In this document: one piece after another, positions 17,516 through 62,462 of the stretch | Numbering within the stretch: the stretch's first letter is position 1 | Layout: each line of letters opens with the position of its first letter | NCBI GenBank assembly: GCA_014871385.1 | Contig: CM026422.1 | Coordinates: 12,512,831-12,576,830 of the forward strand | Source: Ceratodon purpureus | Taxonomy: Eukaryota; Streptophyta; Bryopsida; Pseudoditrichales; Ditrichaceae | DNA length: 64,000 nt | Direction: 5' to 3' | The notes under the pieces: generated by a model | What the model was told of the DNA's origin: nothing | Seen by the model: the letters and a program-made list of their open reading frames with translations, nothing else | Databases searched by the model: none | Translations under genes and position numbers: made by a program

Positions 17516-19984
17516 GTGGAACCACGAGGAGAGACCGGCGTGGGTATCCATCAGGTCAGTTCGCGTAGTTCCACCCGGAGACAGGATTCAGAAAAGAAGA
17601 AGAGGAAGTCTGGTGTTCGGACCAGGTCACAGAGGAAAGAGAGTAGCCGACCGGAATCTTCAGAAACTTCCGGGGAATCAGAGAAGGAGGTGCCCCCGGA
17701 GACGGTCCCGGTTGAAAAAGGGGTCAAGACCCTACCAACTATGCCGGACATTGGACCGGAGGTAATTGCTGGGTTACCTCAAGTACAGGAGGGCCGGAAG
17801 GTGACATTCAGCGAGATTCCGGAAATTATCCAACCGGAGGTCCGGGCGAAAGCCGACAGGTACGACATCCTCCAGGATATTCAAGCCCAGCCGGCCAATG
17901 TCACCATAGGACAACTGTTACATGATAATCCTAATTATCAGAAGCAGGTTAAGTCAGGCTTAATCCGGACCCGGAAACGGAAGATTAAGCTGCCTTCCGT
18001 CGCAGTTAATTTTGCCGAGATGGAGGATTTCGGGGCTCCGGAAATAGTTGTGGAGATCGACGGATGTATTATCCAGAAGGTACCGGTAGATGGAGGATCC
18101 GGAGTAAATCTACTACTGGAGAGTACGGCCAATGATTTAGGGTACACTGTCTTTGAGCCTACCAATCAGACCTTACGGATGGCAGACCAGTCTCGAGTAG
18201 TACCAGTGGGAAAACTGTCGGCAGTACCGACAAAGATTTCCGGACTCACTTACCCGCTCAACTATTTGGTTATCCGGGTGGAGGAAGGAAATCCGTTTCC
18301 ACTGTTACTCGGACGGCCGTGGCTATATCTAGCCGGAGTCAAGGTAAATTGGGCGAAGAAGGCTTTTACTTTCGGGGATCCGGCTGTTTTGTTATCGTGG
18401 AAACCGGAGCTCCATCTGCGGGAAACAAGTGAGACGGATGGTTACACTTCCGATTGGACAGGGTCAGAAAACTCGGATACCCTGCAGTCGTATCATGTTC
18501 AAGAATTCCGGGAGGTATCAGAAGAAGATCTGGGATTCCGTAACCCGGTACCTGAATAGAAGCCGGATGGAACCGAAGTACCGAACCGACCGCCGGAAGG
18601 CAGGAAGGAAGATGACAGGGCCTTAGGAGAAGCAAGCGTTCCATTGACCTCCGAATGGATTAGAGGACAGTTCGCAGATGGGATAATCAAAACAGGGATA
18701 TCCGGGTCAAGGACTAGTGACTTACCCTGGTCAGCCCTTCCGGGGTCCGTAGGAACGGATGCTACCGAACCGGTCAAGAATGTGGTAGCACCGGAGGATT
18801 ACGAAGCAGTGAAGACGGAAGCCGGTAGGACTTTCTATTTGGGAAAAGGACTGACGGACCGGGAGCGGGCACAGTATTTGGAACTGCTTACGGAATACGA
18901 TGACGTCTTCGCTTGGCTCCCATCGGATCTGGTGGGTATACCGCCGGAATTGGGCGAACACCACATCGACCTAATGGAGGGAGCGGTTCCGGTTCGCCAA
19001 AGGCAGTACCGGCTCAACCCAAAGTACTCCATGATGGTGAAGGAGGAACTAGATAAACTGCTGGAAGCCGGTTTTATTTATCCAGTGAATAACTCCGAGT
19101 GGGTGTCACCGATTGTGGTAGTACCAAAGAAAACGGGTCCGGATGGTAAAGTCAAAATCCGGGTATGTCAGGACTTCCGGAAGCTGAATGCAGCCACGAA
19201 GAAGGATCATTTCCCTTTACCCTTCATCGACATGGTGCTCGATCACGTGGCCGGTCAGGAATGCTTCAGTTTTCTAGATGGGTTTTCCGGATACAATCAG
19301 GTGTCCATCCGGAAGGAGGACCAACTGAAAACTACTTTCACCACCAATTGGGGTACCTACGCTTTCAACCGGATGCCTTTCGGATTGTGCAATGCTCCCG
19401 GAACGTTTCAACGGTTGATGATGGACATATTTCAGGATTTCTTAAAACATTTCCTGGAAGTTTTCATTGACGACTTCGCGGTGTTCAGCCGGTGGATGGA
19501 ACATCTGGACTATCTCCGGAAAACGTTCCAGCGATGCCGGGAGACTAAACTCAAGCTCCATCCGGGCAAGTGTTTTTTTGGTATGTTAGCCGGACTATTG
19601 CTCGGACACATAGTCAGCCGGAAGGGAATAGCAGTGGATGTAGCAAAAGTGATAGTCATGTTGGCCCTTCTTGCTCCCACCAACCTCCGGGAACTCAGAG
19701 GATTTCTGGGGCGTGTGGGATACTACCGGAGGTTCATTGAGAATTATGCCCGGTTGGCAATGCCACTAACGGAGCTGCTCAAGAAGGAAGAAGAGTACCT
19801 CTGGACGGAAATCCGTCAACAGGCTTTTGAAGAACTGAAGAGACGGTTGGTCACAGCCCCTATACTAGCACCACCGGACTGGTCGAAATCTTTTCATGTC
19901 ACTTTGGATGCATCCGGTTGGTGTGTGGGAGCTATCCTATGGCAATTGGATGACGAGGGCCGGGAACGACCCATCTATTATGCC
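17516..19984 (+). CDS. pol: pol of element A, left part (broken)
   Basis: Same frame as gag. Contains the aspartic protease ([12 protein letters not shown]) and the reverse transcriptase with its FIDDF active site, and runs up to the start of RNase H, where T1 is inserted. The rest of pol continues at 47,545. The copy is broken and is described as a fossil only. Confidence 0.9.
19975..19984. repeat. target site duplication of MULE T1, left copy
   Basis: CTATTATGCC here and at 47,535-47,544. Element B carries the undisrupted target (CTATTATGCCAGCCGG) at the same place in pol. Depending on where the terminal base is assigned the duplication is 9 or 10 bp, the usual range for MULEs. Confidence 0.92.
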
Positions 19985-20110
19985 GGGGAAAGTTCGTACG
20001 TGAGCGGAGAGCGTAGAGCGGAGAGCGGTGAGCGCAGAATGGAGAGCACAGAATTGACAATTAGCCAAATTTTCAAAAGCAAAGTAGACCCTATAACCGT
20101 GAAAAATTAC
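19985..20110 (+). repeat. T1 left terminal inverted repeat
   Basis: GGGGAAAGTTCGTACGTGAGC followed by short purine-rich units (AGAGCGG/AGAGCGT/AGAGCA) and then the inner match GACCCTATAACCGTG. The inverse sits at 47,319-47,534. The same layout begins T2 at 56,864. The AGAGCGG units are a sub-terminal micro-repeat, a possible transposase-binding array. Confidence 0.88.
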
Positions 20111-20532
20111 TAAATTAAGGCTTAATTTTGACACTTTTTTTAGAAAAAGAGTATATTACCGTGGAATTTAGGGTTATCTCTGGTAAGAATTTATTACGTT
20201 TGTTCTCAAAGATACAAATTAGGGCTGATGTCATGATGACGTCATGCATACATTCCTTTAGATTTATCATGGGTTTGGGCAAGATACAATGATCAGGCGT
20301 TGAGTTTTAGATCAAACAAATAATTCTTTCATAGGATTATGTAAATGCACAAGGAAAAAAACAACTTTCACAGAACCTAAAGGGTTTAGGCATACACGAG
20401 TATAAACTGGAAATGAGAATCATGAATACTTTAGTGCTTTGCAATAGAGTAGACGATGCAGTATGTAATCAACTCCACTGAAATCAAATCAAATTAAATG
20501 GAAACAATGATAGAGCGAGGCCTCTTTCAAAC
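20111..20532. other. T1 left subterminal region
   Basis: AT-rich, noncoding. It includes the palindrome ATGTCATGATGACGTCAT near 20,228, which is also present in T2 (near 57,107). It lies downstream of the stop codon of the leftward gene, so it probably acts as its 3' UTR and terminator region. No gene seen. Confidence 0.5.
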
Positions 20533-23500
20533 TTAGAAGATGCTACAGTCGCTACTTCCACTCTCAGAACCCGATGACTCAGACTCTCCTTCTACAGCCT
20601 CTTCATCGACAAAAAGAAGGGCCCTGGGATCGAAATTAGTGGGCCGACTAGGAACATATCTAAGTGCACCACATTGAAGCGCTTGTGCTAAGCCCTCTGC
20701 GTAGTCCGGAAGAATAAAAGGCTGAACCGGGCTGGAATTAAGACGCCACGATGGAGTGAACACGGCTCTATGCCTACTTGGCGGTGTTGTCACAACTACT
20801 CTGCAATAGAAAGCCAGAAGTGGTTAGAACGAATAGGTAAATTTGCGTACAGAAATAATACTAGATGCATTGCACGAAACCTACAAATTCTAGAGTAAGA
20901 CTTACAATACTTAGTGGGTCTTTGTTTCTTTGCTGGTGCTTCCTCTGCTGCTGCCGGTCTAGGATGCTTAGGGGGGCCCATGGGAGATTTTGCTGCCATA
21001 TACGGTTTGAGAAGGGCGTCGAATATGGCTTCGTCATCCTCAAAAGCTATAACATGACGACCAATAGCCTGGCAAGCCTTGACAGAGGCCCCTGCAACTC
21101 AAAGCAAGGTGAAGACGTGAGAAACTGAGAAAGGAATCAGAGAAATAATTCTGTAGAAACATGTAAGAACGGTTACCTGTTCCTGCCTTCCAGTCCAGGA
21201 CTATGTCGCCGGGCTTCGAGAGCTCTCCAATTATGTTCTGCATCATCCCAGGGGATTTTTCCCTTGGCCCTCTCCATGGAACATCCCCATTCATTTGCTG
21301 AGAATCAACGTCGATAAAGTTGAAAATCGCATCACTCTCGGTAATGTTGAGGTCGCCATGTATGACATGGGATTTCTTCGTCTGAAAGGAGAACTTAGAT
21401 GGCGGCTCGCCACCACGAACGAAGACACGGATCCAGAACCGATTAGTCTGCAATCAACCAAATTATGTCAGAATTAATAAACGGAAGGGATAGTACTAAG
21501 TAAACTGAAGGAAAGGAAAGGATGAAATTACCAGGTTTCCGGGGTTCGTAGGAGAAGTGAGGCTGAGCTCATTGAAGCCCCACCAGTCTTTGTAAAGGAC
21601 GAACTTAGTGGCGCTAGCTTCTTCAAGAATCTCCGTTGCCAACGCTTGATCATTGTTGTAGATGATGCACAGAGCGCCATCATTTTGCAAGTAAAGACTT
21701 GCGAAATAGAAAATGTCGTACACATAATCCTTTTCACGGGAGTTCCAAGGAGGAATCACTGTAGGGGGATCGGAAATGAGAGGGACAGGAAGATTCTCAG
21801 GGATGTCTACAATGATCAAGTCGACTCCAAGATGATTCTCAACCTCGCACCGCTCAGGAACTTGGTTATGCCGCCCACGTCCAAACTGGAGAAACAACGC
21901 TATACGGTTAGACTATATGAAATTAATTGAAGTGTACGTAATATTAATTATTGAAGAAGAGAATCATACCTTGCGCACGAACTCTAGAGTTTTCACCCAA
22001 TCCGGATGGCCACCCTTGTCTTTGAGCTCCGAGTTACGAACCAGTAACGGGGTCACGGATGAGTTGATGATAGAAACACCAGTGGAATGGGGAGTTCCTG
22101 CGGAGGAGGTGCTTGCCGGGAGAAGTCTGGCCTTCCTTTGCTCGAGAAGACCTCTGGTGATAGCAGATGCACTGACCGATGAAGGCGCAGGAGTAGGGGA
22201 CGGATTGGGAACGACAATCACAGGAGATGGAACGGCAGCGCCCTTCTCCGGGGCGGAGGACTCTGCACCAGTCTCCTGAGAGCCCTGGGACGTAGCACCC
22301 AGCTTTCGCAGTCGCCGCCCCCGCCCTTTCTTCCGTGGAGGTGCAGATGATTGATCCTGGAGGCCTTCGGCCTCATCAGAACCGTCTCCAGAATCGTCGA
22401 TGGCTATTGATCCCGCGTCAAGCTCAGCTTTGAGCTCCGCTTCAGACTCAATAACGAATCCTCAAATGCAATCGAGGTACCAACACCCAGCGGCTAGGTG
22501 GGGCGAGCTGTACCTCTTCAGCTGCAGAGGAGTATAAATACACTGATCAGAGCCTCTCTGAATCCAGGACGCGAAGTATGAAGGGAACTTCTCAGGGTCA
22601 ATTGCACCTTTTGGAACCAGCTCTCTCTTGAAGTACCTAATAAAATTCAACTGCCATGTATCAGAAACATATTATTGACAATGAAGAAATGCGAAAAGGA
22701 AATACAATACAAAGTCGAAGTTCATAAATGTCCTACCGGTATGTCACACGCTTGACAACATCTGTTGCTCCCGGAAAAGTGGAGAAGTCTGACTTCTTAT
22801 CAAAAGGCTTTTCTGCGCGGGTACTAATAAATGCGGGGAAGGCCTTTTCCCAAAGGAGAATACGCCAGCTCTCCACATATGCGTCTGGCCGCAACAGTCC
22901 CGGGAAGGACTTCCACTTGATGACAAGGTTCTCGGTCTTACAGATGTCATCAAACTCCCGAGTAACAGCATCCTCCAACTGCCACAGAAAGGTAATGTCG
23001 TTGAGGTAAACATGGACATTAAACAAAAAAGAAGAGGTTTTAGAGATTGTTAAGAAGTTTGAAGAGTTCTACCGCAGCCCAGAATGTGGCCTTGTTCAAC
23101 CAGGGCTCCAACTCGGTCTCCTTAAAGTCTTGGGGCAGAAATCTGTAAGATTGTCGTGCACTTGGTGAAGAGTTCCACCACTTTAGCCAACGGGCTTTGA
23201 ATCTGGCATCAACATTTGCGGGAACAATCCTCTGAAGCTTATCCACTGTCATCTCGGGCTTGGAAAAATCACTGTAATGCCGATTGATCTGGGAAGAGAA
23301 CAATACATGATAGGGAAGATTAGATTTGAAAATAATTATAGGAAAGTAAAGTAGAAATGTCAAGGGTCGAAACTCACCTCCGCCAGGAAGTCATCACCGT
23401 TTTTGGGATTGGCAATGGTCAGGTACTTGGTGAAGTCCTTCTTCTTAATGTAGTTGATCATGTCGGACGAAGCAGCAGACATAGCATCCCAAACCCCTGC

Positions 23501-24536
23501 GGCAGTTTGCTCTGTAATGGGTGTCTTCTCCTTGTAGGTCCTGGCTGCTTCGTCTGAAGCAGCCACGATTTCTCTCTGGAAAATAAACATTATCAACTTC
23601 TTAGTGTACAGAGCACGGCAATTGATGACATTTAGAATCGTAAGGGGGGGTGGGGAAGAAGTGCTTACACGATAAAGAAATGCGATGAAGATTTTGGTTG
23701 GCAAAGTAAACCATCTTGGAATCGATGGTTTGTGATTCAAACATAATTGATACTCTGCTGGTGAGAGCAGATCCTTGAATTCCTCCAATTTCATCACACC
23801 AAAAGAGCGAATACGAAAGAGTTTTGCAGGAAGATTACTCTTCACATGATCATTTTCTGTAGACCTGCTCGAAGATATGGTAGTTAGTTAAAGCCCTGAA
23901 GTACAACCAGCTTTCAAGAAGTGGGGACAAAAAGTAGGGAAACAATTCTTACCAGTTGATGTCGTGCATGACATGAAGAAGGTTTCCCACATGACCGCGG
24001 GGGTCAAGAACAATGCAATGCACGGAGATGTGCCACGCTGGATCATCATAGTGATGGTTGTTGATATGTCTGTACCAAGCGGCAAGGCGATGGTTTCCTT
24101 CCCAGACATAGAACATCTTCCCAGAGAACTCCTTCCAGTCCGGGTCGGCCAAGAGCTCATCTTCGAAAGCATCATTGACTTTTTGCCAACAAGGGCTCCA
24201 GTCAGCCTTGATCTCCGGAGTGACTTCGGCTGTCTTCTCTTCGTGTTTGTACATGGAAATGTACATGACCCGGTCCCCATCTCTATATCCATTGACAAAC
24301 TCGCGCTCCAAATGTTGAACTCCCATTTCGCCTACCGGTCGCACTCTTGCCATTGACTGCATCCTGCAGAGGGGTACAAGCATACGGGACTTCGCCTTTG
24401 GGAGTATTCGGAGATCGTTGATAACGGTTGTGGAGTCCAATTTGAAATGTTTCCTGTGTTCCAATTCACTGTCCACTGCATTTGTCAAATCAGTGGGACA
24501 AGATGGCGCTGGCAACTGATCCTGTGTTTGAGTTAC
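20533..24536 (-). CDS. ParB-like / permuted amino-methyltransferase-like protein gene (T1 copy)
   Basis: Ten exons with GT-AG borders: 24536-23953, 23864-23669, 23575-23378, 23288-23073, 22978-22737, 22636-21970, 21885-21532, 21447-21177, 21091-20906, 20798-20533; about 1,059 codons. Exon 1 has a ParB/sulfiredoxin-like pattern ending YVWEGNHRLAAWYRHI, then IVLDPRG. Exons 2-5 are helical with no known domain. Exon 6 begins with an ordered stretch (GCWYLDC) and ends Ser/Pro-rich. Exon 7 has DLIIVDIPENLPVP at the place of methyltransferase motif IV. Exons 8-9 hold a SAM-type motif I (WKAGTG, then KACQAIGRHVIAFEDDE). Motif IV before motif I is the beta order of DNA amino-methyltransferases; DPPY is replaced by DIPE. 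Exon 6 has one in-frame stop relative to T2, so this copy is probably damaged. No ATG opens exon 1: upstream exons must supply the start. Confidence 0.72.
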
Positions 24537-24690
24537 CTGTCAAAGGTCATACGTACTTAGAGTTGATTCGAAGTCAATGAACTTAATCAAATCAAAAACA
24601 ATAAAGTAGAATAAAAGAAATACTTCTCAGACTGGTACATCTTTTTAAGAACACAATCAGCTGCAGCAGAAATAAGTAGAGCTTAGGCCA

Positions 24691-25101
24691 CTATGTGCGT
24701 CGTGCACGACTATAATACTCCCTAGCCTGTCTACAGTTCCAGTGACGGCGCCTCTTCCAAAATCGCTTGGTTTGCTGGACAGGGCATGGCAATATCGCTG
24801 GCAGGGCGAAGACAACATGAGCTGGCCTCCTGACTCTAATAGGCGAGGATGGAGAAGGTGGAGACATAGGCGGGGTCCCAAGTCTTGGAGAGGTAGGCAT
24901 GTAGCCCGGGGATGTAGGCTCATAGACAGGAGACGTAGGCATGTACTGAGGAGAGTGGACCTCAAGAGGTCCACTACCTAAACCTACGGGGTTGCCCAGA
25001 TCACACCTACATAAATGGGGCTGATCAAATGAATCCGAGAGGTCGAAGACATTGATCACTGAGATCGGCGAACTGATGGACAAGGGTGCATCTGAGAATA
25101 C
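24691..25101 (-). CDS. terminal exon with RNA polymerase II CTD-like heptads (T1)
   Basis: Acceptor CTCTAG at 25,102; 136 codons to a stop at 24,691. It starts VFSDAPLSISSPISVINV and has three heptads at 24,945-24,883 (YMPTSPV, YEPTSPG, YMPTSPR), then a Ser/Pro-rich part and a basic tail (RRRRHWNC region). The heptad copies Y1, P3, T4, S5 and P6 of the Pol II CTD consensus YSPTSPS, with Ser2 replaced. T2 has the matching exon with six heptads. The stop falls at the same place in both copies and no phase-compatible donor was seen near it, so this looks like a genuine last exon. Confidence 0.68.
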   Translation of the reverse strand, partial: VFSDAPLSISSPISVINVFDLSDSFDQPHLCRCDLGNPVGLGSGPLEVHSPQYMPTSPVYEPTSPGYMPTSPRLGTPPMSPPSPSSPIRVRRPAHVVFALPAILPCPVQQTKRFWKRRRHWNCRQAREYYSRARRT

Positions 25102-25227
25102 CTAGAGAAAAAGAACAAAAACATTGTCATATTCCCAACTAAGTATTCAGAAGAAAATTAGAGATGACTATGGAAGTTCAATAAATCAGGCTATGTTTAA
25201 ATCCGGAAACAAATGAAAACAGATTAC

Positions 25228-28200
25228 CTCAGTTTCTGCTAGTGTTGGGCCATCAAAGTCACTTGCGGTGAATTGCTCAGTGAGCTCCTACAACACAAAG
25301 GGTATGCATCTTATGAGATTTATATACAGAGCATAAAAAAGATAGAATATAACAAAGTATTGCAAATTATACAAATCAATTTCCCAATATTTAGATTAAG
25401 TTTTAATTTCCCAATCATCACACCCCCCCACATTCTCCCCCTCCTCGTGGGGGGGTTTCGGATCCGAATGCGCCCTTGCGAGGGCTCCTCCCCCCGGGGC
25501 CGCATCACCCAATGGAGCCTCCACTGCTGCAAGCAATGCCGCAAGGGCCGCGGCCATGGCAGTAGCTCCAATGCTCAACCCACCAACTCTCTCCCCCCCC
25601 ACATTCTCCCCCTCCTCGTGGGGGGGTTTCGGATCCGAATGCGCCCTTGCAAGGGCTCCTCCCCCCGGGGCCGCATCACCCAATGGAGCCTCCACTGCTG
25701 CAAGCAATGCCCCAAGGGCCGCGGCCATGGCAGTAGCTCCAATGCTCAACCCACCAAAACACTCCCCCCCCACATTCTCCCCCTCCTCGTGGGGGGGTTT
25801 CGGATCCGAATGCGCCCTTGCGAGGGCTCCTCCCCCCGGGGCCGCATCACCAAATGGAGCCTCCACTGCTGCAAGCAATGCCGCAAGGGCCGCGGCCATG
25901 GCAGTAGCTCCAATGCTCAACCCACCAAAACTCTCCCCCCCCACATTCTCCCCCTCCTCGTGGGGGGGTTTCGGATCCGAATGCGCCCTTGCGAGGGCTC
26001 CTCCCCCCGGGGCCGCATCACCCAATGGAGCCTCCACTCCTCCAAGCAATGCCCCAAGGGCCGCGGCCATGGCAGTAGCTCCAATGCTCAACCCACCAAA
26101 ACACTCCCCCCCCACATTCTCCCCCTCCTCGTGGGGGGGTTTCGGATCCGAATGCGCCCTTGCGAGGGCTCCTCCCCCCGGGGCCGCATCACCCAATGGA
26201 GCCTCCACTGCTGCAAGCAATGCCGCAAGGGCCGCGGCCATGGCAGTAGCTCCAATGCTCAACCCACCAAAATTCTCCCCCCCCACATTCTCCCCCTCCT
26301 CGTGGGGGGGTTTCGGATCCGAATGCGCCCTTGCGAGGGCTCCTCCCCCCGGGGCCGCATCACCAAATGGAGCTTCCACTGCTGCAGGCAATGCCGCAAG
26401 GGCCGCGGCCATGGCAGTAGCTCCAATGCTCAACCCACCAAAACACTCCCCCCCCACATTCTCCCCCTCCTCGTGGGGGGGTTTCGGATCCGAATGCGCC
26501 CTTGCGAGGGCTCCTCCCCCCGGGGCCGCATCACCAAATGGAGCCTCCACTGCTGCAAGCAATGACGCAAGGGCCGCGGCCATGGCAGTAGCTCCAATGT
26601 TCAACCCACCAAAACTCTCCCCCCCCCACATTCTCCCCCTCCTCGTGGGGGGGTTTCGGATCCGAATGCGCCCTTGCGAGGGCTCCTCCCCCCGGGGCCG
26701 CATCACCAAATGGAGCCTCCACTGCTGCAAGCAATGCCGCAAGGGCCGCAGCCATGGCAGTAGCTCCAATGCTCAACCCACCAAAACACTCCCCCCCCAC
26801 ATTCTCCCCCTCCTCGTGGGGGGGTTTCGGATCCGAATGCGCCCTTGCGAGGGCTCCTCCCCCCGGGGCCGCATCACCCAATGGAGCCTCCACTGCTGCA
26901 AGCAATGCCGCAAGGGCCGCGGCCATGGCAGTAGCTCCAATGCTCAACCCACCAAAACTCTCCCCCCCCACATTCTCCCCCTCCTCGTGGGGGGGTTTCG
27001 GATCCGAATGCGCCCTTGCGAGGGCTCCTCCCCCCGGGGCCGCATCATTCAATGGAGCCTCCACTGCTGCAAGCAATGCCGCAAGGGCCGCGGCCATGGC
27101 AGTAGCTCCAATGCTCAACCCACCAACTCTCTCCCCCCCCACATTCTCCCCCTCCTCGTGGGGGGGTTTCGGATCCGAATGCGCCCTTGCGAGGGCTCCT
27201 TCCCCCGGGGCCGCATCACCAAATGGAGCTTCCACTGCTGCAAGCAATGCCGCAAGGGCCGCGGCCATGGCAGTAGCTCCAATGCTCAACCCACCAACTC
27301 TATCTACCCAAGTTCCAATGAACCCCAACAACATTTGAAGTATGCTCACCTGATCAGTAGCCGGGCCGAGGTCCGTGCCACCTCCCTCACTTGCCATCTC
27401 TTGTTCTTCACGCTCCTCTCCTCGCCCCTCCATCTCCTTCTCGATCTCCTCTCTGGCCGCGGGTGTGTGAAGCAATGGGGCTTGCAAAGGGCCTTTCCCC
27501 CTCCCACCTCGACCCTTACCCCTCCCAGGACCCCTCACCTCACCCCTTCGACCTCTCCCTCGGGCCGACCCCTCATCCATGTCCTCTTCTCCCGGACCTA
27601 CAGCAATGTCGAGCGAATCACTATCCTCTCCACTAGTTTCAGTAGGACTTCCAGGGTGCCCTCGCCCCGCTCGTATAGCAGCAACTGCTTCCCCACCTTC
27701 GCCCGCCTCCATAATTTGGCGTCTCGCTCTCCTAGCGACTTTTCTCAACGTCTCATGATCTGACTCTTCGCCCGTATCCACTTCTGGCGTCTTCTCCTCT
27801 AAAACATCTTGCTCAATCCTAATGCAGTCGCCAGTCTGCGCAAATGTTTACGACTAAGACGAGAATTACTACTCCACTATTATTTTATACAACCGTTCAG
27901 TTTAATGCAGCTTCACTATTCTAAACAGTAAAACAACGAACCCGCAGCAAAGACATTAATTCTCACCAAATATAACTCTACCAAAATACATAATTTACAT
28001 TTAGCATTTTCAAATTTGTGGATTATGAAACTTACTCCATCCGTATGAGCATGGTCACTTGACTGAGAATCCGTCCCTCTTGTTGAACACTCCTTGAATC
28101 CGAAAGAAGGTTGCGGTGTCTCCAAAGTCGGACTGCAATTGAACCCTAGCTCTTCCGTCATCTCCAGATGTTTCTCTCCGCTCCTTATTACTTCATGCTC

Positions 28201-28476
28201 CTCATGCTCAACTGCGGTATCCTCTAAAACCTCATCTTCCGCCTCTACAATGGACTCTAGAATGAGTTTACGGATGCTACAAAATTTAATTGCCACAGGC
28301 AGCCCAGCTCCTCGAACCTTTAGAGGTGCACTCAAGAGGTTGCCTTTCGACTTTGACTTCCTACGTAATTCTCTCCTCTTCCTCGATCTCCTGTTAGTAA
28401 AATCTGTACCACCTGGTTTTCTTCTACGCCTAGGAGTGACATAAGTGGAGTGATCTGACCCTCCACTCTCCTTCAT
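25228..28476 (-). CDS. upstream exons of the T1 leftward gene
   Basis: Exons 28476-28036 (147 codons, ATG at 28,476), 27835-27350 (162 codons) and 25287-25228 (20 codons), all phase 0 with good GT/AG borders. The first is basic (TPRRRRKPGGTDFTNRRSRK, a probable nuclear signal) and then acidic. The second is Arg/Gly/Glu-rich and disordered. The third matches T2 62,322-62,263 exactly in length and ends AETE. All phases agree with both the CTD-like exon and the methyltransferase exon 1, so these exons may feed two alternative products of about 465 and 1,388 residues. That model is inferred, not shown. Confidence 0.55.
25421..27300. repeat. 171-bp GC-rich minisatellite, about 11 units, in a T1 intron
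   Basis: The word ATGGCAGTAGCTCC recurs every 171 bp from 25,556 to 27,268. Units differ by only a few bases and by the length of C runs. The array lies between a donor at 27,349 and an acceptor at 25,288, so it is best read as intronic. Because 171 is divisible by three and the units lack stops in several frames, long open frames appear on both strands (735, 457 and 416 codons); these are by-products. Confidence 0.9.
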
Positions 28477-29273
28477 ATGTCTAACTAACGAGAGAAGTCT
28501 CCTCACAATATAGCTCTCCTCCTAACTTCCCTCTAACTTATGTATCCCAACCCTGCAACCCCCCTGACTCAGCCCTCAATACTTCCCATACTCTAAACCT
28601 ACTTGAATTAATGAAAACTATAAATAAATTGCAATTTGAATTAAAGCTGATGAGATCAATCTATATTGGAAGAGAATAAACAAAGCCCACATAATATTAG
28701 AAGATTAGAATTAAGCACAGAAATACTTGTATCAAATATGGATGCAAGTGACGGCTCACTCTAATCTCACTCACAGTCTGTCTGTCCTGTAATTTATTAT
28801 GAAAATTGAGGAACTCTAACACTGAATAAAATATAGAATTTGAATAAATCATATGCTTGCATTAGTCTTATAAATATATAACTAATGCATGAATTTGATT
28901 AATTCAAATTCTATATATTTATTGTTTTAAATGGAGAAGGAATAGACGGCTCTTTTTAATCCAATCACACCCCATAAAAAAAAGAATCTGCTCCACCATT
29001 CAAATACGCGAAGCAATATTCTAAAAATCTTACTACATATTTATGGGCCTGCAAAAAGCAACATCATAATTAGTTAGCGCCGTCTCTCTTTAATCATACA
29101 TTCGTTACGTAGTAGAATGAATCATTACCTAGTCGTCCACATGGACATTCCAATTTGAATAAAATGATCAACAGCGATGCATCATTCCTCTCACTTCGCT
29201 CTCGCGATACTGCTTTGCTAGTACACTCACTCTTCTTCCTTCTTCCTCTAGTATATTTGAGTTGCCTGCGAAT
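28477..29273. promoter_or_regulatory. divergent intergenic region of T1 with an inverted repeat
   Basis: About 0.8 kb of AT-rich DNA between the leftward gene start (28,476) and the transposase ATG (29,274), the only place for both promoters. It holds an imperfect ~39-bp inverted repeat, arms 28,828-28,866 and 28,881-28,920, with a 14-bp AT loop (CTTATAAATATATA). No coding frame seen. Confidence 0.55.
28828..28920. repeat. imperfect inverted repeat in the T1 divergent promoter
   Basis: The left arm contains ATATAGAATTTGAAT and GCATTAGT; the right arm contains ACTAATGC and ATTCAAATTCTATAT in inverse order. It could be a hairpin, a small MITE remnant or a dimeric regulatory site. Confidence 0.6.
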
Positions 29274-32200
29274 ATGGGGATGGTCTGTCTGTACGCCCAA
29301 GGCATGGGCATCCCTCTTAGGTTTCGCGTAGATGACGACGGTCTAGCTACGGTGTCCTCTCTTCGCCTCAGTCTCAGATTCCATTTTCGTGAGGATTCCA
29401 TCAGTATAGAGGAGGAGATCTTTGATGACGTTACTGCCGAGGTTACCCACACCCTCGGGCAACCTTCAGTGAGAGATGAGAACAACATGTTGCAGTGGAG
29501 ACTCCTCCCTGGATCCTATAGAGTCTATGGTCTTACTGATTCTCTTATGGCTGCATCCACTGAGATCCTCACCCCCCGTCGCTCTTCTACTTGCACAATT
29601 CAGACTCCCTTACCTCGTGATGTCAGGGTCAAAGTCGAGCCTGGTACCGAGACTTCAGATGTAGAGAAACCTCCTCCGACCGTCATATCTCTCTCTTCTG
29701 ACGACGAAGTCAGTCCCGTCAAGTTGGTGCCTAAGGTCCACGCAGATGCTCCTCCTTCCAACGTCTCTCCTTCATTGTCCCAGGTCACAATCAGCATTGT
29801 TCCGCTCCTTAAAGAGATTGCTAAGACGCGTGGGTCCAAAAACATTTTGAAGAAGATAGACTATTCTACTATTAGACACGAGAGAGTAGAGTACTTGCCT
29901 GCGAAGTTTGATGGTCCGGTTCTTTTTGAGTTGCCCCCAGCTGCTGCAGGTTCCTCTAAGCTCGCCGCCAAGTCAATGCAGGGAATGGACAAACGATACG
30001 ACGGACACTTGTGGACCAAGACCATCACAACAAACATCAAGAACGACTTCGGACTCTCTTTTCGAAGTTCCACTTGCGTCGGATGGCTCCGCTGCACAAA
30101 CGAGGAGTGTGACTTCCTGAAGCGTGTTCCGAAGATCTTCGAGGTTAACGAGACTGAGTTCGAAGGCTGTACCCTGCAAGCTTTTGTCATGGACCAGCCT
30201 CCTCCATCTGAGTCCACGCTAGTGTGCAAGGTATGTAAAGAACCTCCATCATGTGTAGCTACATGCGAGGCTAAGATTTATTATGTTGTGGGCAAACCGA
30301 CTCAGACTAGAGCTTGTATTCACATAGGAACACATGATCATCCAGTGAAAGTAGGAGACTACAGAGACTCTAAAGCAGAGATTAGTAGCTTAATAGAAGA
30401 GCAGGTAGAGATGAACAACAAAGCAACAAAGAGCGCCGTTGTCTTGGAGGCGAGCAAACTCCTCATCGGGAGCTACCTTCTACAGCCCGAGGATGCACCA
30501 CCGAGGAAACTGACGATGGAGGAGCTGGTTCCTGTTCTGGATCGATGCAAAGACATGGCGTCGCCCAACATCCGCAACAAAGTCGCCACCTTCAAAAAAT
30601 TCGTAAGGTACGGAATCATGGACGGTATCACCAAGCTTCGTGGTAACAGTCTCTGGGCGTATGTCCAGGAGAATAGGTTTCCTGGTCAGGGATCGATGCG
30701 TGACAAAGTCTTTGTCTTCAAGATGTCGGAAGTCGGGCCGGGCAGTGGTGTCGACTTGGTCAGCCGTATGCAAGCTGGTGGCGATTTGGAGAACGCATGG
30801 ATCATGTTCGACCATGTCAAACGCGTCAAAGATTGGTCGACGATGGCGTGCCATGTGTACGACGCCACCTACTGCCGCGTGATGACAATCGCCACTTGCG
30901 ACATGCAGTCCGAGGACACGGACGCCCAGCTCGTCTTCTAGAAAAACCTGAACCTGGTCATGGAGATCAATGGCGTTGCAGCGCCGAACTTCAAGGGGTT
31001 CATGGCGGATAACGCACAGGCCAATTGGAATGCAGTGCGGACCCTTTACGGCAATGGCAACAAAGAGGACCCAATGGAGGACCGGGAGCGGTCGTGCTTG
31101 TTCCAGTGGACTCAGAACATGGTGGCGTATACGCAGAAGCACTTCCCCGAAGAACTCTGGGAACAGCACAAGAAGATGTGCACTCAGTACAAGAATGCGA
31201 CCAGCATGGCAGAGGCGGAAACTCTGTACCACGCGTTGCGAGCATGGTGGGCATCCACCGGGGTCGTTGGCGAGAGCGGGCTCATCAAACTCGATCAGTG
31301 GCTGTCATTCTGGCACCACCGCTTCCGCCAGTGGGGGGGATTCATGACCGAGGTATGATCTCTGCACTCTATTTTGATGTTTTTGATACTGGTTTCCTAG
31401 CCCTAACCTACAAAACTCTAATCCGTGAATCTAACGGCACCTACTGTCAAATCTACAGAAATTCACGGAAGAAGAACTCACAGAGATGCCGACCTGTAAC
31501 CTCGCCGAAACAGTTCACAACAAGTGGCTCCAGGCTTCTGGAAACAACGGGAACGACCTCTACGTTGCTACCGTGGACGATTTCGTTCGGGCATTTCTAC
31601 AGGTTGTCAACTACTACCAATTCCTCAAAGGTGACGTCGGCGGAACAGGACCATCCAAGAAGGAACTCAGGCTTCGGATGGCTGAACGCAACGCGAAGAA
31701 ATGGGGAAATCCTACACTGCTCGACAAGCCCATGCTCGATATGCCAGGCGCGGATGAGTTCTGCACCCGTCAGCCTATCATGCCAGGAGCGGAAGTCTTC
31801 GGTTCACAGAAGCGAAAAGCCGACGTCCTTATCGGAGCTGACGAAGAGTCTCATCGCCCGGATAAGACCAACTTCTCACGCCCAAGAGGCCCAAGACGTG
31901 CCGTCAGGGCTCGCCCTATGCAGATGCCCGTCATTGTGGAAGACGACTCCGAACACGACACCGACGTACAATGTACCCAACCTCCTTCCCAGGAAGTTGA
32001 TTCCCCTTTACCTTCACCTGTGAACAAGGGCGGCATTCGCCATGTCAACGCGGTTGAAGAAACCAAGGTGGACGTGAAGGAGTGGCACATTTCGAGACTT
32101 CACAAACTTTCTGCGAAGTGCTGCTGGGCCCAAAGAGCTGAAACGAAGAAGAAGTGCACTGAGAGAATCGTCAGGGGGCCCCATTGCACAGCTGCACCGA

Positions 32201-35200
32201 CCTACACTGGGCTCTGGACTAACTATCGCAGGAACCTAGTGGAGAAGACTGAGTTCTTCTTCTGCTCCGACGATATTGAACGCTGCGTGAAAGGCTCTAA
32301 GCGCAAGTGGGTAGCACACTACTCAAAGGACCAGGAATTCCCCTCCATTCCAGAGGTGTGGCCAGTGAAACTAGGTACTAACCTAAAACTTACTGAGATT
32401 CTTGCCCTCGAAGCAGCGGGCTTTCAACTTCCGCAGAAGAAACCGGTCTCCCCAAGACGCCTCTTCTCCTCTGCCCCGCCCCCTGCAAATCTCAGCTCGC
32501 TGCCAGTCCCTGCAGACGCTGACCGCTACTGTGGAAAGTGATTTCCACGGTTGACACGCCGGAATACTAATTCCGGTAGGAAAATGATAAAAAAATTAAA
32601 AATTTTATGTTAGAAATACGGAAGTCCTAAGCCTATAAGTAAAACAACCGGTTAAGCCGGTCGGCTGAACAAATAAGTGACCGGAAGGCCAGCCGGGTGA
32701 GATCCGGTCGTCTGCGGTGGAGGAGAGACGGGTACAGTCCATATGACAGAGCCCTGACCCGGCAGACTTAAGGATAGCCGCCAAACGGTACAACGCACAC
32801 GGGGATAATGGCTGCAACCATTAAAGCGCCGCCGGTCGCGACCGTCCAATGATGAGGGGCTACGACCGTCCGTCATGATGAGCTACGAACGGGTAGGCGC
32901 GAGGGCAGGTATAAAAGGAGGAAGGACCGCCATGCTCTTCCTTTCTCTTTGTCATTTTGTGGCACGACGGGTCCTTGCGCTCTAAGGCGGTGGGCGCAGT
33001 TAGGGTTAGACGGTAGGAGAGAGACGGTGAGACGGAAGTGTTTCCGTTAGGCGAGAGATTGTGGTGAGGATCGTGCGTGCAGGTGTTACCGGAGTGACGG
33101 AGAGGAGGATTTAGCAGGATGGGTAGGAAAGGGAAAGAACCGGCGGCGGAAGGACAGTCGTTCAGGGTACAACGGGTGATGCCGTTGATACCGGCCGGAG
33201 AAAAGGAGAAGGAGCTCCTCCGGACCGCCTTAGAGTCTATGGGTTGTGAGGTCCTACTGGACAAGGCATGGGGTTGGAAGTTTGCCCTTCCGGCCCAGGA
33301 GATCCTCGTCAAGGATCCTGAGAATCGAGGAACCATCCGGGGAGAGCCGGATAAGTGGTCGGCCCAGCTCTGGAGGGAGACGTATGGTTTCAAGAACTCC
33401 GGCGGCGAGGTCTCGACGCCGGAGCCCCGGGACTTCGTACATCAGTATCTCAAGGGGACCGGAGACCCGAGAGAAGGATGGGTGGTGGATGACATTGCGG
33501 ATCCGGAGGCCCGGAGAGTAGTAGGGTTTATGAACCCTATCTTCCATCCGGAAAAGCCCAAACGGATCACCAACAAGTGGGCGTCCGTTTTCATTGGGGC
33601 CATGATCGGTGAATTCACGGTGGACTGGGGGGTCATGATGAAGACGATAGTCGACCGACAGGTGGCCAATCTCCGGAAGACCAAGAAGCAGGCCACCTGC
33701 CTTCCGTCTTTCCTCATCCACCTCTACCGTACTAAGGGACTGTTGACTGCTGAAGAGGTCCGGGAGTACGATATGCTCTTAAGCTATCAGCAGTTCACTG
33801 AGCCGGAAGAAGTGTCCGACCAGGACGACGAGGATGATGTTATTGAGGTCTCCCCCACGCCGGCCAAGAGACCCCGTCCTAGCCCGGAGAAAGGACAGCC
33901 ATCCGGATCACCTCGGACTCCCGCACCGGCCAAGCGAACCCTGAACACGGAGGTCCAACAGCCCACCGGACCACCGGAGCACACCGGAGATCCGTACCAG
34001 GACTTAGTTAACCTATCGGAGCAGGCAACGACATATGCCCGGTTCTTACAGTCGACTAGGAAGGCCGAGGGCCGGTTGGCTAGGGAGGTAATGATCCTTA
34101 CGGGTTCGGACCGGTTGGAGGATTGCCTGAACATTCTTCGCAAGCAGCGGGACTTGGCCGGTCTCCAGGAGAAGCACATGGACCGGCTGGCGAAGTACCG
34201 GGAGACGAATCGGAAGCTCGAGGAGGAGGTGCGTGATGCCCGGAAGGATTTCAATGACGCCCGTGAGCGGGCAGTCGAGGCCATCCGGTCGGTCGCCGAG
34301 ATCAAGGCCACTTTAGCTCTTCCGGTAGATGTGGCCAATCAGTGCGCCGTTTACCAAGCTTTCCTGACCCGTCAACCGGATCCGACTACGAAGAATATTA
34401 TAAAGTTCATGCACGACCGGACGCAGGTGATGAGGGACACATGGACGATGATGAAGAACCTGGTGGAAATCCTCGGTTATGCAGAGGCCGGTCCGTCATC
34501 AGGGCCACCGGCAAACCAAGAGGATCCCAGACCACCGTCCCCAACCAGGGAACCGGCACCGGTGCCACCTCCAGCCTCTCCGATACGGTCGGCCATCCGG
34601 CCCGCCCAACAGGAGATAGGACACCCGCTGGAGGATCCTATTCCGGACACCTTGAGCAGTCTGCACACTCTACCCAACTTGGATGGAGTCGAGACTGTTA
34701 ACCCCGGAAACATTCCCTTGGAACCGGACCAGAGACCGCCACCGGAAGATTTTATACCGGTACAGGGATCTCCGGAAACGCTCCAGGTGGATCTCAGCGC
34801 AGTTCCGGTGGCGGCACGATCTCCATCCCCGGCAGCTCAAGCAGAACGATCCCGGAAGTCCAGTGAACCGTCAGCATCTGCGGCTCCGGAAGAAGACCCC
34901 CCGTTGAAGAAACTGAAGCGGGTACAGAGGAAGGAACGGTTGGACGGAACCCGGCACAGTCCCCGGCTCGATAAGCACAAGGAGTAGGGTTTAGGATAAG
35001 GACCGGATAAAATGGCAGCGACTAACGATGGGGCTCCAGTGCACCCGGCTGCCAATCCGGATAGATAACGGCAGTAACTAGGAATAGAAGGCGGCCACCG
35101 GTCCGGGATTCCCGGATCCAAGATCCGGAATTTTTGGATCTCGGTGGGCCACTTGGTCGCTTTAGGAACCGATAGGTTTTAGTATTTAAGATAGACGTTT

Positions 35201-38200
35201 TCCCAAGGCCGGGGCCTTGTTTTTGTACGCCGTTTTGTTGTTGCAATTTAGAATATACTTTTGGATTTGTTGTGTCAACCGGCTGCTGACGGGTCCGTTG
35301 CCGTATGGTTTGTGGTTCTATTGTCTTCAGTAGTGTTCCGGAGGAGTGTTGAACAGTAGGAAGGTCAGGAGAGCGCCCGGAGAGACTGGGGAGGTGTCAA
35401 GCGTCGAGTGTTGACGGTTTCCAGTCCCGGAAGGAGCCCGTAGGGAAGGAGAGACGTATTGCAGCAGGGCTGGTAGTCTCAAGGACACGGAGAGTCGTGT
35501 GTACACCGGGATCCGGAAACGGACCGGTCGCTTCCTGTAGATGGGATAAAAGCCGGATGTCCTACTGCGAACCAATCCGGAAGGGAGATAGTATAGTAGA
35601 ATACTGCGCAGCCGTAAGGTGATGTCATTGTAGTATGATTTCCGTATCCGTAACCGGCACTGAGTAGTTATCCGGACCGGTCCCTAGCCGTACGGAAGGA
35701 TTATTACTCCACTTCTCGGGTGGTAGATAGGAACAGTGGGGTGTCCAGCCACTATAAGTTACGGGACGGTGGAAAATCCAGCCACTTGAAAGGATAGACG
35801 GATCAGTGGGAACCGGCCACTAGTCTAAAAAGCCGGAAAATAGGAACGAGGCAAAAACTACCGGATTTGTCCAACCGTCTGTAAGACGGTGTACGGTCGG
35901 ACACTGGTGGTGATTTCCGTTAAAGTCTAAAAGAAAGAAAACTATAGGTCTTCGTGGGAACGAACACGGAGTGGTTCACTTTGGAGGGTGTTTAGTGTCA
36001 ATTAAGTGCCTTCCGGAGGAATACGTATACCACGTCGTGCTACATGTGATTTTTGGCGCCGCTGCCGGGGATCTATATGATTTTCTTTCTCCGGATTTCT
36101 ACGGTTGTCACTAACCCAAGTCAGGTTGTAGAAAACGCATGAATCCGAATTCTGAGCCGGAAGGAGTACGGAGGTCTAGTAGAAAGAAGAAGGGTGATCA
36201 GGAGACGGAAGCCAGGCCATTCGTCACTACTAGAGCAGAATCCATTGAAGACACAGATCAAGAGATAGCCGGGACTTCCGGATCCGGAGGTCAGGGTGGG
36301 ACAGTACCACCCGGACCGGTGACCGGGGGACCGGTAGCGGGTCTTCCTATGGCCCGGACGTTCTCCAGACTGAAGTATCGGAAGTTCAGGGGCGATGGCC
36401 GGGAGGACGTGGACGAATGGCTAAGCGAGTTCAACGCCACGGCTGCTGCCAACCAAGAGGACGAAGCAATCAAGTTACGGTTGTTCCAGGGATTACTCAA
36501 GAAGGAGGCACTCCAGTGGTACCAAGAGGAACCGGACAACGTGCGAAGGAGTTGGGGTTTGCTATCTGATGCCTTCCGGAGGGCCTTCCGGGAGGTAGGA
36601 GGAGAAGCCCGCACATTGGGAAAACTTAGTAAAATCCGGATGGAGCCGGAAGAGTCGGTCCGCCGGTACGGACAGAGGGTTAGGAGTTTAATTCATAAAC
36701 TAAGTCCCGGAATTGCAAACAGTATCCAGGTAGAATGGTACGTTGCTGGGTTACCCGACCGGATGGGGTTCCAAGTAAGGCAGACCAGGCCACAGACTTT
36801 ACCGGAGGCCATGGAGGCCGCCCAGAACTATGAAAACTCCAAGCAGTCCATACGGCAGTACCGTAAGGCAGGGAAGAGCTCTAGACGTCTCCGAAAGGTC
36901 CGGAGGAGCCGGGATTCTAGTTCAGAATCCAGTGGATCCAGCTCCGAAGATAGCTCGGAAACCGGAAGCAGCAGCAGTGAGGAGGACCGCTCACGACGGA
37001 AGGCGTCAGGTAGCAAGGGCTACCGGAAGGACAAAGAACGGACGATAGTCCGAGTAAAGGAGGAATACCCATCGGAGAAACGGATGATCAAAGATCTGGT
37101 GAACAGCATTGAAGAACTCAAAGTCCAGATGGCGGAAGAGAAGAAAGCACGGAAAGCGCTGCCCACCGTCCGGAACAATGTGTGGTGCACCAACTGCGGA
37201 AAGCCGGGACATTACAACCGGGAATGCCCACACGGAGCACCCAAGAGAGTGCAGTTTGTGGATGAAGAGGGGTCAGTATTCTTTGCGGAACCTGCTTATG
37301 AAGAGGAGGAAGTGGAGATGCTACCGGTTTACCAGGTAAACCCGGCCTATGGCCGTGGACGGATGATGCAGCCGGTTATCAGACCGCGACCCGGAATGGG
37401 CTATCCATCCGGTGGACATCCGGCCCCGCCAGTACGACCACCCGTCTCGGTGGAACGGCAGTTTGGATGCTGTTATATTTGTGGAGAAGCCGGTCATTAT
37501 GCTAACAATTGTCCACACCGAGGAGGTCAAGGCGCACCGTTGGAACTTCCGTGTCAAAACTGTGGTCAGTACGGCCATAAGTCACCCCAATGCCAACAAC
37601 CGGTTAGACCTAGGGCTATCTATAAGCAAGTGGAAGAACCTCCCCGGGAGCGTACCGGGCTCAACTACGGTCACAAAGACGGGATAGAGAATCCGCCAAA
37701 TTGACGGTTACCGGTGGAACCACGAGGAGAGACCGGCGTGGGTATCCATCAGGTCAGTTCGCGTAGTTCCACCCGGAGACAGGATTCAGAAAAGAAGAAG
37801 AGGAAGTCTGGTGTTCGGACCAGGTCACAGAGGAAAGAGAGTAGCCGACCGGAACCTTCAGAAACTTCCGGGGAATCAGAGAAGGAGGTGCCCCCGGAGA
37901 CGGTCCCGGTTGAAAAAGGGGTCAAGACCCTACCAACTATGCCGGATATTGGACCGGAGGTAATTGCTGGGTTACCTCAAGTACAGGAGGGCCGGAAGGT
38001 GACATTCAGCGAGATTCCGGAAATTATCCAACCGGAGGTCCGGGCGAAAGCCGACAGGTACGACATCCTCCAGGATATTCAGGCCCAGCCGGCCAATGTC
38101 ACCATAGGACAACTGTTACATGATAATCCTAATTATCAGAAGCAGGTTAAGTCCGGTTTAATCCGGACCCGTAAACGGAAGATTAAGCTGCCTTCCGTCG

Positions 38201-45853: not shown

Positions 45854-46107
45854 GTAGCCCTCCTACTTTAGAACTTCCATTTCCACAATGGCCATTTGTC
45901 ACGTAGTGAATGATTTTAGTAATACACCATGTACTAAGTCAGCTATTCAGAAGCTGTATTGACTTTTTCATTATATTAAAGGCTTTGGCGTTCGCATTGA
46001 TTGCTTTCTATTTCAATACATTGTATCTTGAAGAAGTGCACTATATACCTCGTATCCCCTGACATGTACCCTTTATTAAGGCAAACATATACTTGTTATT
46101 AGATGTC
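45854..46107. other. convergent 3' region between transposase and small gene
   Basis: About 250 bp of AT-rich noncoding DNA between two converging genes of T1; it probably holds both poly(A) regions. No gene seen. Confidence 0.45.
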
Positions 46108-46560
46108 CTAATCTTCGAACCTAACACGTTTAGGGTTGCCCACTACACTATCAGCAGGACTGCCAGCCGCTGACTGTACTACAGGAGAAACTACATTCGC
46201 ATTCACTTTCGTTCCCACACTTGGCAAATGTCCTTGGTATGATCGTTTCAGCAATGGCCCACCTCCCCGCCTCCGATTAACTGATTCCCTGGAATAGGTT
46301 CCCCTTGGGATCTTTCCAACCCTCGAGTATGCATGTGGTTGCAAAGGCACATCTGCGTCCTTCTCTAGCACTATGATTTCATCCGAATTTTCTGAACGTG
46401 GAGGGTCAGCTCTTACATCCGGTTGTACCGCAACATCCGATGTCGACGGACGCCCTTGGCTGTTGGCCATCACCTCTTCTTCGTCCTCCACCTCAACATA
46501 TGGTTGAAATGGACAAACATCGTCAGCGAGTGAAACAACAATATCTCTGACGTCTTCCAT
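46108..46560 (-). CDS. small acidic/basic protein of T1, unknown function
   Basis: 150 codons from an ATG at 46,560. N-terminus acidic (EVEDEEEVMANSQG), middle disordered with a SENSDEIIVLEKDADV stretch that resembles a SUMO-interacting motif, C-terminus basic with RRRGGGPLLKR and a final NPKRVRFED. No domain recognised. It lies inside T1, convergent to the transposase. Short and low-complexity, so it may be part of a longer spliced gene; the T2 equivalent is outside the window. Confidence 0.45.
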   Translation of the reverse strand: MEDVRDIVVSLADDVCPFQPYVEVEDEEEVMANSQGRPSTSDVAVQPDVRADPPRSENSDEIIVLEKDADVPLQPHAYSRVGKIPRGTYSRESVNRRRGGGPLLKRSYQGHLPSVGTKVNANVVSPVVQSAAGSPADSVVGNPKRVRFED

Positions 46561-47318
46561 AGCTGCTGTCCCGCACTACGGAAAAGAGCTTCATATAACA
46601 CCAATACAAAAGAGGCAGAGACATTCCCTACTCTTATCTTAAATATCCCTGAAGAAGATGCTTGGCGCCCTTGAAAATCGGCTATTCATTCATTTAAAAG
46701 TTGTCATCCTCCTAAACCGAATGGAAAAAGATGAAGGTTTAGCAGAGGTCATTTAGCATTTAAATCTTTCTTTAAAAATTAAAGAATGAAAAAAAAAAAA
46801 AAAAATTAAAAAAAAAAAAAAACATTTATATAAATTGAAATTAAAAAGATTAAAGAAAAGAATAGCAATATTTAAAATGAAGGTTGAAAATAATATGAAG
46901 GAGATCAACAAATTGAATGTGAAAATAAAATGATTGTGAAAATAAAATGAAGGAGAGAATCAAATGCAAGGAGGCTTTTGACCCCTCTAACAAGATAGAT
47001 AGAATAAAGAAAATTTTATATAAAATACAAAACAAATTTCAAAAAAATTTAAAAAAAAAAAAAAAAAAAGGAGAAAGGCATGTAGACTATAGTGGATGAA
47101 TTCTAGCAATGTTATGAAATTAAATGTTACTTGATCCCTGTTCAGAGGTTCAATACCAATACATTTTAAGTAGTAATTTGCATATAAATTTGAGGAGATA
47201 AGGGGAATTACTGTATGCCTGAACTAGTTAGAAGGAGCTGGAGCATAGTAATTGGTGCACGTTAAAAAATTAATCACCAAGAAAGGAGAATATGAACTAC
47301 AAATTCAATGAAAATACT
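46561..47318. other. AT-rich subterminal region of T1
   Basis: Long A runs near 46,788-46,822 and 47,049-47,069 and strongly A/T-biased sequence; no gene or clear repeat beyond these runs. Likely upstream of the small gene and subterminal to the right TIR. Confidence 0.5.
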
Positions 47319-47534: not shown

Positions 47535-47544
47535 CTATTATGCC
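47535..47544. repeat. target site duplication of MULE T1, right copy
   Basis: CTATTATGCC, identical to 19,975-19,984; element A resumes directly after it. Confidence 0.92.
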
Positions 47545-62322: not shown

Positions 62323-62462
62323 CTTAATCACAAACATCGTTATAATTATTAGAAGAAACAGCAAATATGAGAAAACAGACCACAAGCGCGACAAGGCTCC
62401 CATATAAACCTTAAAAAATCGTGAAAACTCATGAGATTCATAATATCTTTGTGAGCACAATC

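Follow-up and report, generated by a model that had tools for sequence, protein, structure and literature searches.

The question raised by this locus is what a spliced gene of ten exons does, if anything, for the transposon that carries it. Two such transposons, designated T1 and T2, lie in a 64,000-nucleotide stretch of the moss Ceratodon purpureus (contig CM026422.1 of assembly GCA_014871385.1, positions 12,512,831 to 12,576,830 of the forward strand), which is referred to below as the window and supplies all coordinates. We consider it probable that the gene encodes an accessory factor of a Mutator-like element (MULE), in which a ParB-fold module is joined to a domain, derived from beta-class methyltransferases (MTases), that is degenerate or altered, and that it belongs to a high-copy moss family.

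T1 and T2 are real transposons, both having inverted repeats and perfect 10-bp target-site duplications (TSDs). Their terminal inverted repeats (TIRs) are at least 55-62 bp long and built of GAGAGCGGA-like units (19985-20050, 47470-47534, 56864-56930), an array that a DNA-binding protein of the element might recognize. T1 sits inside a long terminal repeat (LTR) retroelement, and a second copy of the same retroelement displays the empty site. The features of the two elements are as follows.

19985..47534: MULE-like element T1, with TIRs and target duplication; ~14.6 kb excluding a nested LTR retroelement
19986-20047 / 47532-47471: TIRs of T1 (end-region sequence 19985-20050 and 47470-47534)
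19975..19984: left TSD of T1, CTATTATGCC, 10 bp, equal to the right copy
47535..47544: right TSD of T1, CTATTATGCC, 10 bp
56864..64000 within the window: element T2; its right end is at 72402 on the extended contig, beyond the window
56854-56863 and past the right end: TSD of T2, GATGCGGGAT, 10 bp

The duplications fall within the range of 8-11 bp outside the TIRs given for MULEs (according to PMC6446971). An initial annotation of the window had called the gene MULE-borne. The TIRs and duplications agree with this name and are its basis, while the transposase had no match to any Pfam MULE or transposase family.

The gene is transcribed from the minus strand (T1, 24536-20533; T2, 61509-57537), with GT..AG borders and introns of 77-107 bp. 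Exon phases are the same and lengths nearly the same in the two copies, just as the initial annotation had described for two diverged transposons. The encoded protein of ~1,060 residues consists of an N-terminal ParB-like module, a middle part with no known domains, a low-complexity linker and a C-terminal MTase-like domain.

23953..24536, minus: T1 exon 1, 584 bp; ParB/sulfiredoxin (Srx)-fold domain, GNHR box
23669..23864, minus: T1 exon 2, 196 bp
23378..23575, minus: T1 exon 3, 198 bp
23073..23288, minus: T1 exon 4, 216 bp
22737..22978, minus: T1 exon 5, 242 bp
21970..22636, minus: T1 exon 6, 667 bp; mostly low-complexity linker; in-frame TGA at 22464-22462
21532..21885, minus: T1 exon 7, 354 bp; MTase-like, motif IV position (DLIIVDIPENLPVP); aligned by hhalign to phage beta-class MTases
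21177..21447, minus: T1 exon 8, 271 bp; MTase-like up to motif I (GDIVLDWKAGTG)
20906..21091, minus: T1 exon 9, 186 bp; remainder of motif I, next helix/strand (ACQAIGRHVIAFEDD)
20533..20798, minus: T1 exon 10, 266 bp; C-terminal tail and stop
61509-60926, minus: T2 exon 1, 584 bp
60837-60642, minus: T2 exon 2, 196 bp
60559-60362, minus: T2 exon 3, 198 bp
60272-60057, minus: T2 exon 4, 216 bp
59961-59721, minus: T2 exon 5, 241 bp; 1-bp deletion near exon end
59643-58971, minus: T2 exon 6, 673 bp
58883-58530, minus: T2 exon 7, 354 bp
58445-58175, minus: T2 exon 8, 271 bp
58087-57899, minus: T2 exon 9, 189 bp
57802-57537, minus: T2 exon 10, 266 bp

Exon alignment A6 is a 17-row alignment, in which short exons had been misplaced, after removal of seven rows; alignment A7 comprised 57 of the 98 proteins found.

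Exon 1 was predicted by AlphaFold to adopt a ParB/Srx fold (predicted local distance difference test score, pLDDT, 87), and the PDB structures at ranks 1-35 all belonged to that superfamily. The GNHRL signature, from which the initial annotation had recognized a ParB/Srx region, occupies residues 147-151 and is thus accompanied by the predicted fold. Within the P-motif (Box II), the arginine of GNHR is present in 54 of 59 members and the glycine in 58 of 59. We equate this arginine with the NTP (nucleoside triphosphate)-binding arginine of ParB-CTPases, an equation of our own; in ParB the P-motif arginine is required for NTP binding (as stated in PMC12704722).

Several results count against a ParB assignment. 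The best Foldseek E-value of the model against PDB was 0.07, none of the 59 members gave a Pfam match to a ParB family, and profile searches of PHROGs, NCBIfam and PDB sequences did not recover the domain. When the moss ParB part was compared with ten phage ParB parts, hhalign returned 0.03%, i.e., no profile match, and at locus C11 the box reads GNHC. The sequence libraries having given nothing, the assignment comes from the predicted fold.

The MTase-like region, exons 7-9, was recovered by sequence comparison. Pfam N6_N4_Mtase (PF01555) matched T1 with 32.4 bits and T2 with 29.0 bits, above the curated cut-off of 26.7. An alignment of exons 7-9 from nine moss sequences matched 59 phage beta-class MTases with an hhalign value of 97.65% over 192 columns, and the controls gave 0.05-0.63% (eight column-shuffled alignments), 11.0% (reversed) and 0.40% (the ParB alignment). 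Against the narrow family of AcaML1 ParB-methylases the value was 71% over just 59 columns; this set comprised 58 phage proteins, from which 35 MTase parts and ten ParB parts could be cut for hhalign. Weak matches to sequences of solved structures, DpnA (E 6e-4) and CcrM (E 0.03), were found, that of CcrM at profile positions 720-934. A chance resemblance was considered and ruled out by the hhalign controls together with purifying selection.

The 192-column alignment places the motifs in the order IV, X, I: DIPE falls on DPPY and REKSP on TQKP, both before motif I. The order of motif IV before motif I, read in the initial annotation as the beta order, is therefore confirmed by profile comparison, and the S-adenosylmethionine (SAM) motif, AGTG..AFEDDE, does follow a motif-IV-like strand, as had been noted; motif I is divided by an intron. 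The profile-profile check proposed in that annotation hence succeeded for the MTase exons, which match phage beta-class MTases, and gave no match between the ParB part and the ten phage ParB parts compared. Its amino-methyltransferase-like domain holds as to profile homology, except that the position of DPPY reads DIPE.

This departure concerns every sequence examined. In 14 of 14 (T1, T2, C1c, C11, C1a, C2b, C9a, C9b, C1b, C4, C9c and the proteins P0001-3) motif IV is D[I/V/A]PE and never [DNS]PP[YFW]; several of them are near-identical copies, so that they amount to approximately four independent lineages. Ordinary catalysis is accordingly doubtful, and the epigenetic role suggested in the initial annotation is not supported in the sense of an active writer. 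Further points that weigh against the proposed reading are the scores of three Ceratodon proteins, P0001-P0003 (15.7, 14.5 and 18.3 bits, below 26.7), a stop in exon 7, the MTase part, of C11, and the AlphaFold2 model of the 803-residue paralogue P0003 with exon rows, which at a mean pLDDT of 32.8 is not usable. Because the structural test for a Rossmann fold gave only this low-confidence model, the MTase assignment relies on the profile alignment.

Two opposite explanations of motif IV have to be weighed here. According to the first, to which we give a somewhat less than even chance, the domain is catalytically dead, keeps SAM or DNA binding, and serves as a scaffold or anti-silencing factor. 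METTL14, the degenerate partner in two-subunit methyltransferases, offers a parallel. The uniform D-x-P-E of the roughly four moss lineages favors this explanation, given that the canonical pattern [DNS]PP[YFW] occurs somewhere in the protein in 115 of 117 phage relatives (58/58 and 57/59), and so does the fact that exons 7-9 are less constrained than the ParB exon. Yet conservation extends to D and P in motif IV, to T-G in motif I and to the altered motif D.PE.LPV itself, which would fit altered chemistry as well; moreover, a D[IVA]PE pattern is found somewhere in five of 58 phage ParB-methylases, all of which have the canonical motif too. According to the second explanation, which we regard as rather doubtful, the protein is an active DNA amino-MTase with an unusual active site that modifies the element with N6-methyladenine (6mA), N4-methylcytosine (4mC) or some other methyl mark. 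It would account for the 192-column homology, the Pfam match, the largely kept motif I and the conserved D and P of motif IV, and methyltransferases are known as cargo of other eukaryotic transposons (described in PMC5890265); it has to accommodate that all 14 sequences have lost both the aromatic residue and the second-position P of DPPY. Judging from the sequences, we treat exons 7-9 as a putative derived branch of the beta-class amino-MTase family, with chemistry altered or lost, and do not class them as a functional enzyme.

To characterize selection, the ratio of nonsynonymous to synonymous divergence (dN/dS) was calculated. A value near 1 had been named in the initial annotation as the outcome speaking against its reading; between T1 and T2 the value is 0.195 (bootstrap 0.154-0.237). 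For exons 1-5 it is 0.11-0.28 among 28 close copies (a comparison that excluded T2, L198 and L201 as well as codons with stops or gaps). Constraint is weaker on the MTase region: T1-T2 dN/dS is 0.297 in exons 7-9 vs 0.096 in the ParB exon 1, and exons 7-9 gave 0.25-0.51 between T2, C1c and C11. Synonymous divergence between T1 and T2 drops toward the 3' end of the gene (20533-21897 vs 57537-58896), dS declining from >2 in exons 1-2, where values above 1 are saturated, to 0.3-0.4 in exons 9-10. This drop suggests recombination or gene conversion between subfamilies.

The difference between the two domains bears on another explanation, in which transposition itself employs the ParB-fold module as a nicking nuclease or NTPase and the MTase-like part is structural. 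We hold it to be improbable: a DDE transposase is not expected to need a ParB-type nuclease, and the support is not direct. It consists of the stronger selection on the ParB exon (dN/dS 0.10 vs 0.30) and of the report that the ParB domain of a Bacillus cereus ParB-methylase nicks DNA non-specifically (according to PMC5512222).

The distribution of the gene was studied by searching the genome (362.5 Mb, 151 contigs) with exon 1; 150 of 1,892 candidates were scored. All 150 scored matches, T1 included, showed 84-100% identity. Exon 1 was free of stops in 127 of the 150, several groups having identical scores, and the 29 copies with the best scores, T1 not counted, included 16 in which exons 1-5 were intact with GT/AG borders. 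Since T2 (72% identical) is absent from this list of 150, the family is larger.

The gene is present in at least three subfamilies. In two of them, whose genes are ~30-35% identical, it is kept beside a divergently transcribed transposase. Subfamily B (loci C2b, C9a, C9b, C1b and C4) has 34-36% identity to T1 in the ParB exon and ~29% in exons 4-8; four of its five stretches carry a transposase ~41-46% identical to that of T1 in the main stretches and transcribed away from the gene. The same arrangement is found in T2, and in C11 the start of such a transposase lies at the edge of the stretch. The intron inside motif I was read in all three subfamilies, so that the MTase-like domain and its intron are older than the subfamily split. 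Not all loci conform: no transposase was found within the examined stretch of C9a, C1c and C9c (three of ten loci, T2 included), and at C1a, a locus of the Ceratodon-protein type, the transposase match just upstream of the gene is partial, while a 97% T1-type transposase lies farther away, perhaps as part of an adjacent element.

Exons at C1 share up to 97% identity with a C. purpureus protein. Relatives of the transposon gene are annotated in this species as 'hypothetical proteins', namely P0001-P0003 (M758_9G084500, M758_1G310400, M758_6G158200); their gene models lack the ParB exon, and the related locus C1a has a ParB exon upstream. At the edge of locus C9a (L015:1-729) we observed a further MTase-like relative, ~30% identical (PWRGPKE..AGTG) and outside the three subfamilies.

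These data allow us to judge whether the gene is a captured host gene fragment, i.e., a Pack-MULE-like passenger with no function for the element. Such an origin would agree with the tendency of MULEs to acquire host gene fragments (PMC6446971 reports it) and with the state of the window, in which both copies are broken, T1 by the TGA in exon 6 and T2 by the 1-bp deletion in exon 5, two lesions missed in the initial annotation. Nevertheless, the gene stays beside the transposase across subfamilies whose transposases are only ~41-46% identical, the motif I intron is found in all three subfamilies, and selection is purifying; from the copies in this one moss genome, we therefore consider a passenger very unlikely. 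The gene being kept beside the transposase argues for an accessory factor, and this part of the initial annotation is supported by the lasting association and by purifying selection.

The transposase and the remaining frames of the elements were examined as well.

29277..32526, plus: 5' part of the T1 transposase; in-frame TAG ending at 30941; intron 31353-31458 by eye
45431..45853, plus: 3' part of the T1 transposase, SWIM-like CxC..CxH
32527..45425: LTR retroelement nested within the T1 transposase gene; at 32532-45425, a second copy of the retroelement hosting T1
24691..25101, minus: upstream exon U2 of T1; YxPTSPx heptads resembling the C-terminal domain (CTD) of RNA polymerase II, conserved basic tail, terminal stop
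~62128-61660, minus: upstream exon U2 of T2, CTD-like YxPTSPx heptads
27916..28506, minus: upstream open reading frame (ORF) U0, matched in T2, C11 and C1a at 58-63% identity
46108..46560, minus: 150-residue ORF, antisense to the transposase; counterparts in T2 (43%) and at C1a (91%)

The T1 transposase contains an in-frame stop and is split by the nested LTR retroelement. That of T2 has two open exons, of 743 and 505 codons from stop to stop, and, read by eye, has conserved D-containing blocks and CxxH. Pfam SWIM matches were weak, 11.9 bits (T1 3' part) and 15.3 bits, below the cut-off of 19.6. One LTR retroelement is interrupted by T1 and the other is nested in T1, which gives the order of insertions. 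The two retroelements (12336-52787) are ~12.9 kb each, with 3.5-kb LTRs, and ~97% identical. Tandem repeats are located inside T1 (25423-27297; 11 units of 171 bp, with minus-strand frames largely open) and inside T2 (62545-63999; 6.9 units of 211 bp).

U2 of T1 scored 20.0 bits against PF05001, just under the cut-off of 20.3; YxPTSP matches three times in T1 and five times in T2. The stop and the basic tail of U2 are at the same position in the aligned copies (alignment without L198 and L201). U2 and exon 1 both start in phase 0 after the donor of exon U1, so U2 could serve as an alternative terminal exon, and the start of the ParB-methylase-like protein could lie upstream of exon 1. The link between U1 and exon 1, and hence the start codon, is provisional, which tempers the proposed protein structure.

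The favored reading, a MULE-encoded accessory factor, can be put as a mechanism. The protein would be made together with the divergently transcribed transposase. Its ParB-fold module, in which the GNHR arginine is mostly kept, would engage DNA under NTP control and load on the element, with the GAGAGCGGA arrays in the inverted repeats as a candidate loading site. The MTase-like domain, with motif I largely kept and motif IV D-x-P-E, would work on or bind DNA in a SAM-dependent way, so that the element might be marked or shielded against host silencing, or marked for transposition. In our view the gene most likely benefits the element through an effect on its DNA or chromatin, the MTase-like domain being a writer or a scaffold. 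We infer this function of the gene product for the element, together with DNA binding, the use of NTP and SAM, and the benefit to the element; the role would resemble that of VANC or MURB, as an analogy only. A bolder version seems to us a long shot: a lineage of land-plant DNA transposons would have evolved a protein of its own, NTP-gated and of the ParB-clamp type, for marking DNA or countering silencing, and its MTase domain, with the stable new active-site motif D-x-P-E-x-L-P-V, might write an unexpected mark or act as a SAM-dependent switch on the element; if true, it would help explain the at least 150 copies of the family in the genome.

Among known systems, fusions of ParB with N6_N4 MTases (PF01555) in phages and prophages, known and frequent (as described in PMC12704722), share with the moss gene the ParB N-terminus, the beta-class MTase C-terminus and the location on mobile elements. 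The moss gene differs from them in its ten exons, in the length of its product (~1,060 residues) with an extended middle part and linker, and in motif IV, DxPE instead of DPPY; the ten phage ParB parts compared had no profile match to that of the moss. An example is P0104 (gp25 of Acidithiobacillus phage AcaML1), reached through a weak match of P0001, with 32.5 bits for ParB_N (cut-off 26.3) and 99.4 bits for N6_N4_Mtase (cut-off 26.7). The accessible text of the phage-fusion survey notes no eukaryotic transposon, 'transpos' and 'plant' having 0 occurrences (PMC12704722). In the Bacillus cereus ParB-methylase, ParB is likewise fused to an adenine methylase, and nicking is reported for this protein (in PMC5512222); it is bacterial and was compared by description, not by sequence.

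VANC of the Arabidopsis VANDAL elements, which belong to MULEs (according to PMC6446971), is also a transposon-encoded accessory protein with an intron-containing gene in a family with tandem repeats, and it causes methylation loss on target elements (as reported in PMC5735166). By contrast, the accessible text of that source names neither a ParB nor a methyltransferase domain in VANC, and the moss protein is known from sequence only. The Dam-like MTases of DIRS elements and the DNMTs of Symbiodinium and Klebsormidium retrotransposons are transposon-encoded and eukaryotic as well, but they belong to retrotransposons and to other MTase families, and a ParB domain is unmentioned in the available part of PMC5890265. 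VANC may be viewed as a functional analogue, and the DNMT/Dam-bearing retrotransposons as the closest systems by cargo. Extra ORFs or domains beside a MULE transposase, as here, are known from MuDR with mudrB and from MULEs with OTU, SET, FAR1 or PMD (listed in PMC6446971); this survey of 1,631 MULEs gives SET, OTU, FAR1 and other extras, and the word 'methyltransferase' occurs 0 times in the main text as accessed. In the open PubMed Central (PMC) literature we found no paper uniting MULE, ParB and adenine methyltransferase, nor one uniting a Mutator-like transposon and N6-adenine methyltransferase. A ParB-MTase gene on a MULE-like transposon hence appears to be new within that literature, the kinds of parts being known.

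The horizontal acquisition proposed in the initial annotation did not find support: a scan of IMG/VR with P0001 gave three pattern matches and a scan of genome contigs with the exon-1 alignment gave 28, with 0 confirmed in either case, and the ParB part lacks a profile match to the phage ParB-methylases compared. Because such scans depend on recent similarity or on exact matches to short patterns, a phage origin is neither shown nor excluded by them. A tblastn search of phages with P0001 returned 171 records; among the 20 records listed the matches were weak (E 0.01 to 0.9) and fell mostly on annotated methylases.

It is rare, and informative, for a transposon to encode a factor that acts on the marking of host DNA, as exemplified by VANC and by DNMT or Dam in retrotransposons. 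A ParB-MTase architecture on a eukaryotic cut-and-paste transposon would be a second, structurally unrelated candidate of that class. With a moss host, a high-copy family and many copies with a stop-free exon 1, it is directly testable, and its conserved non-canonical motif IV raises the question of what selection has favored, a new chemistry or a dead scaffold.

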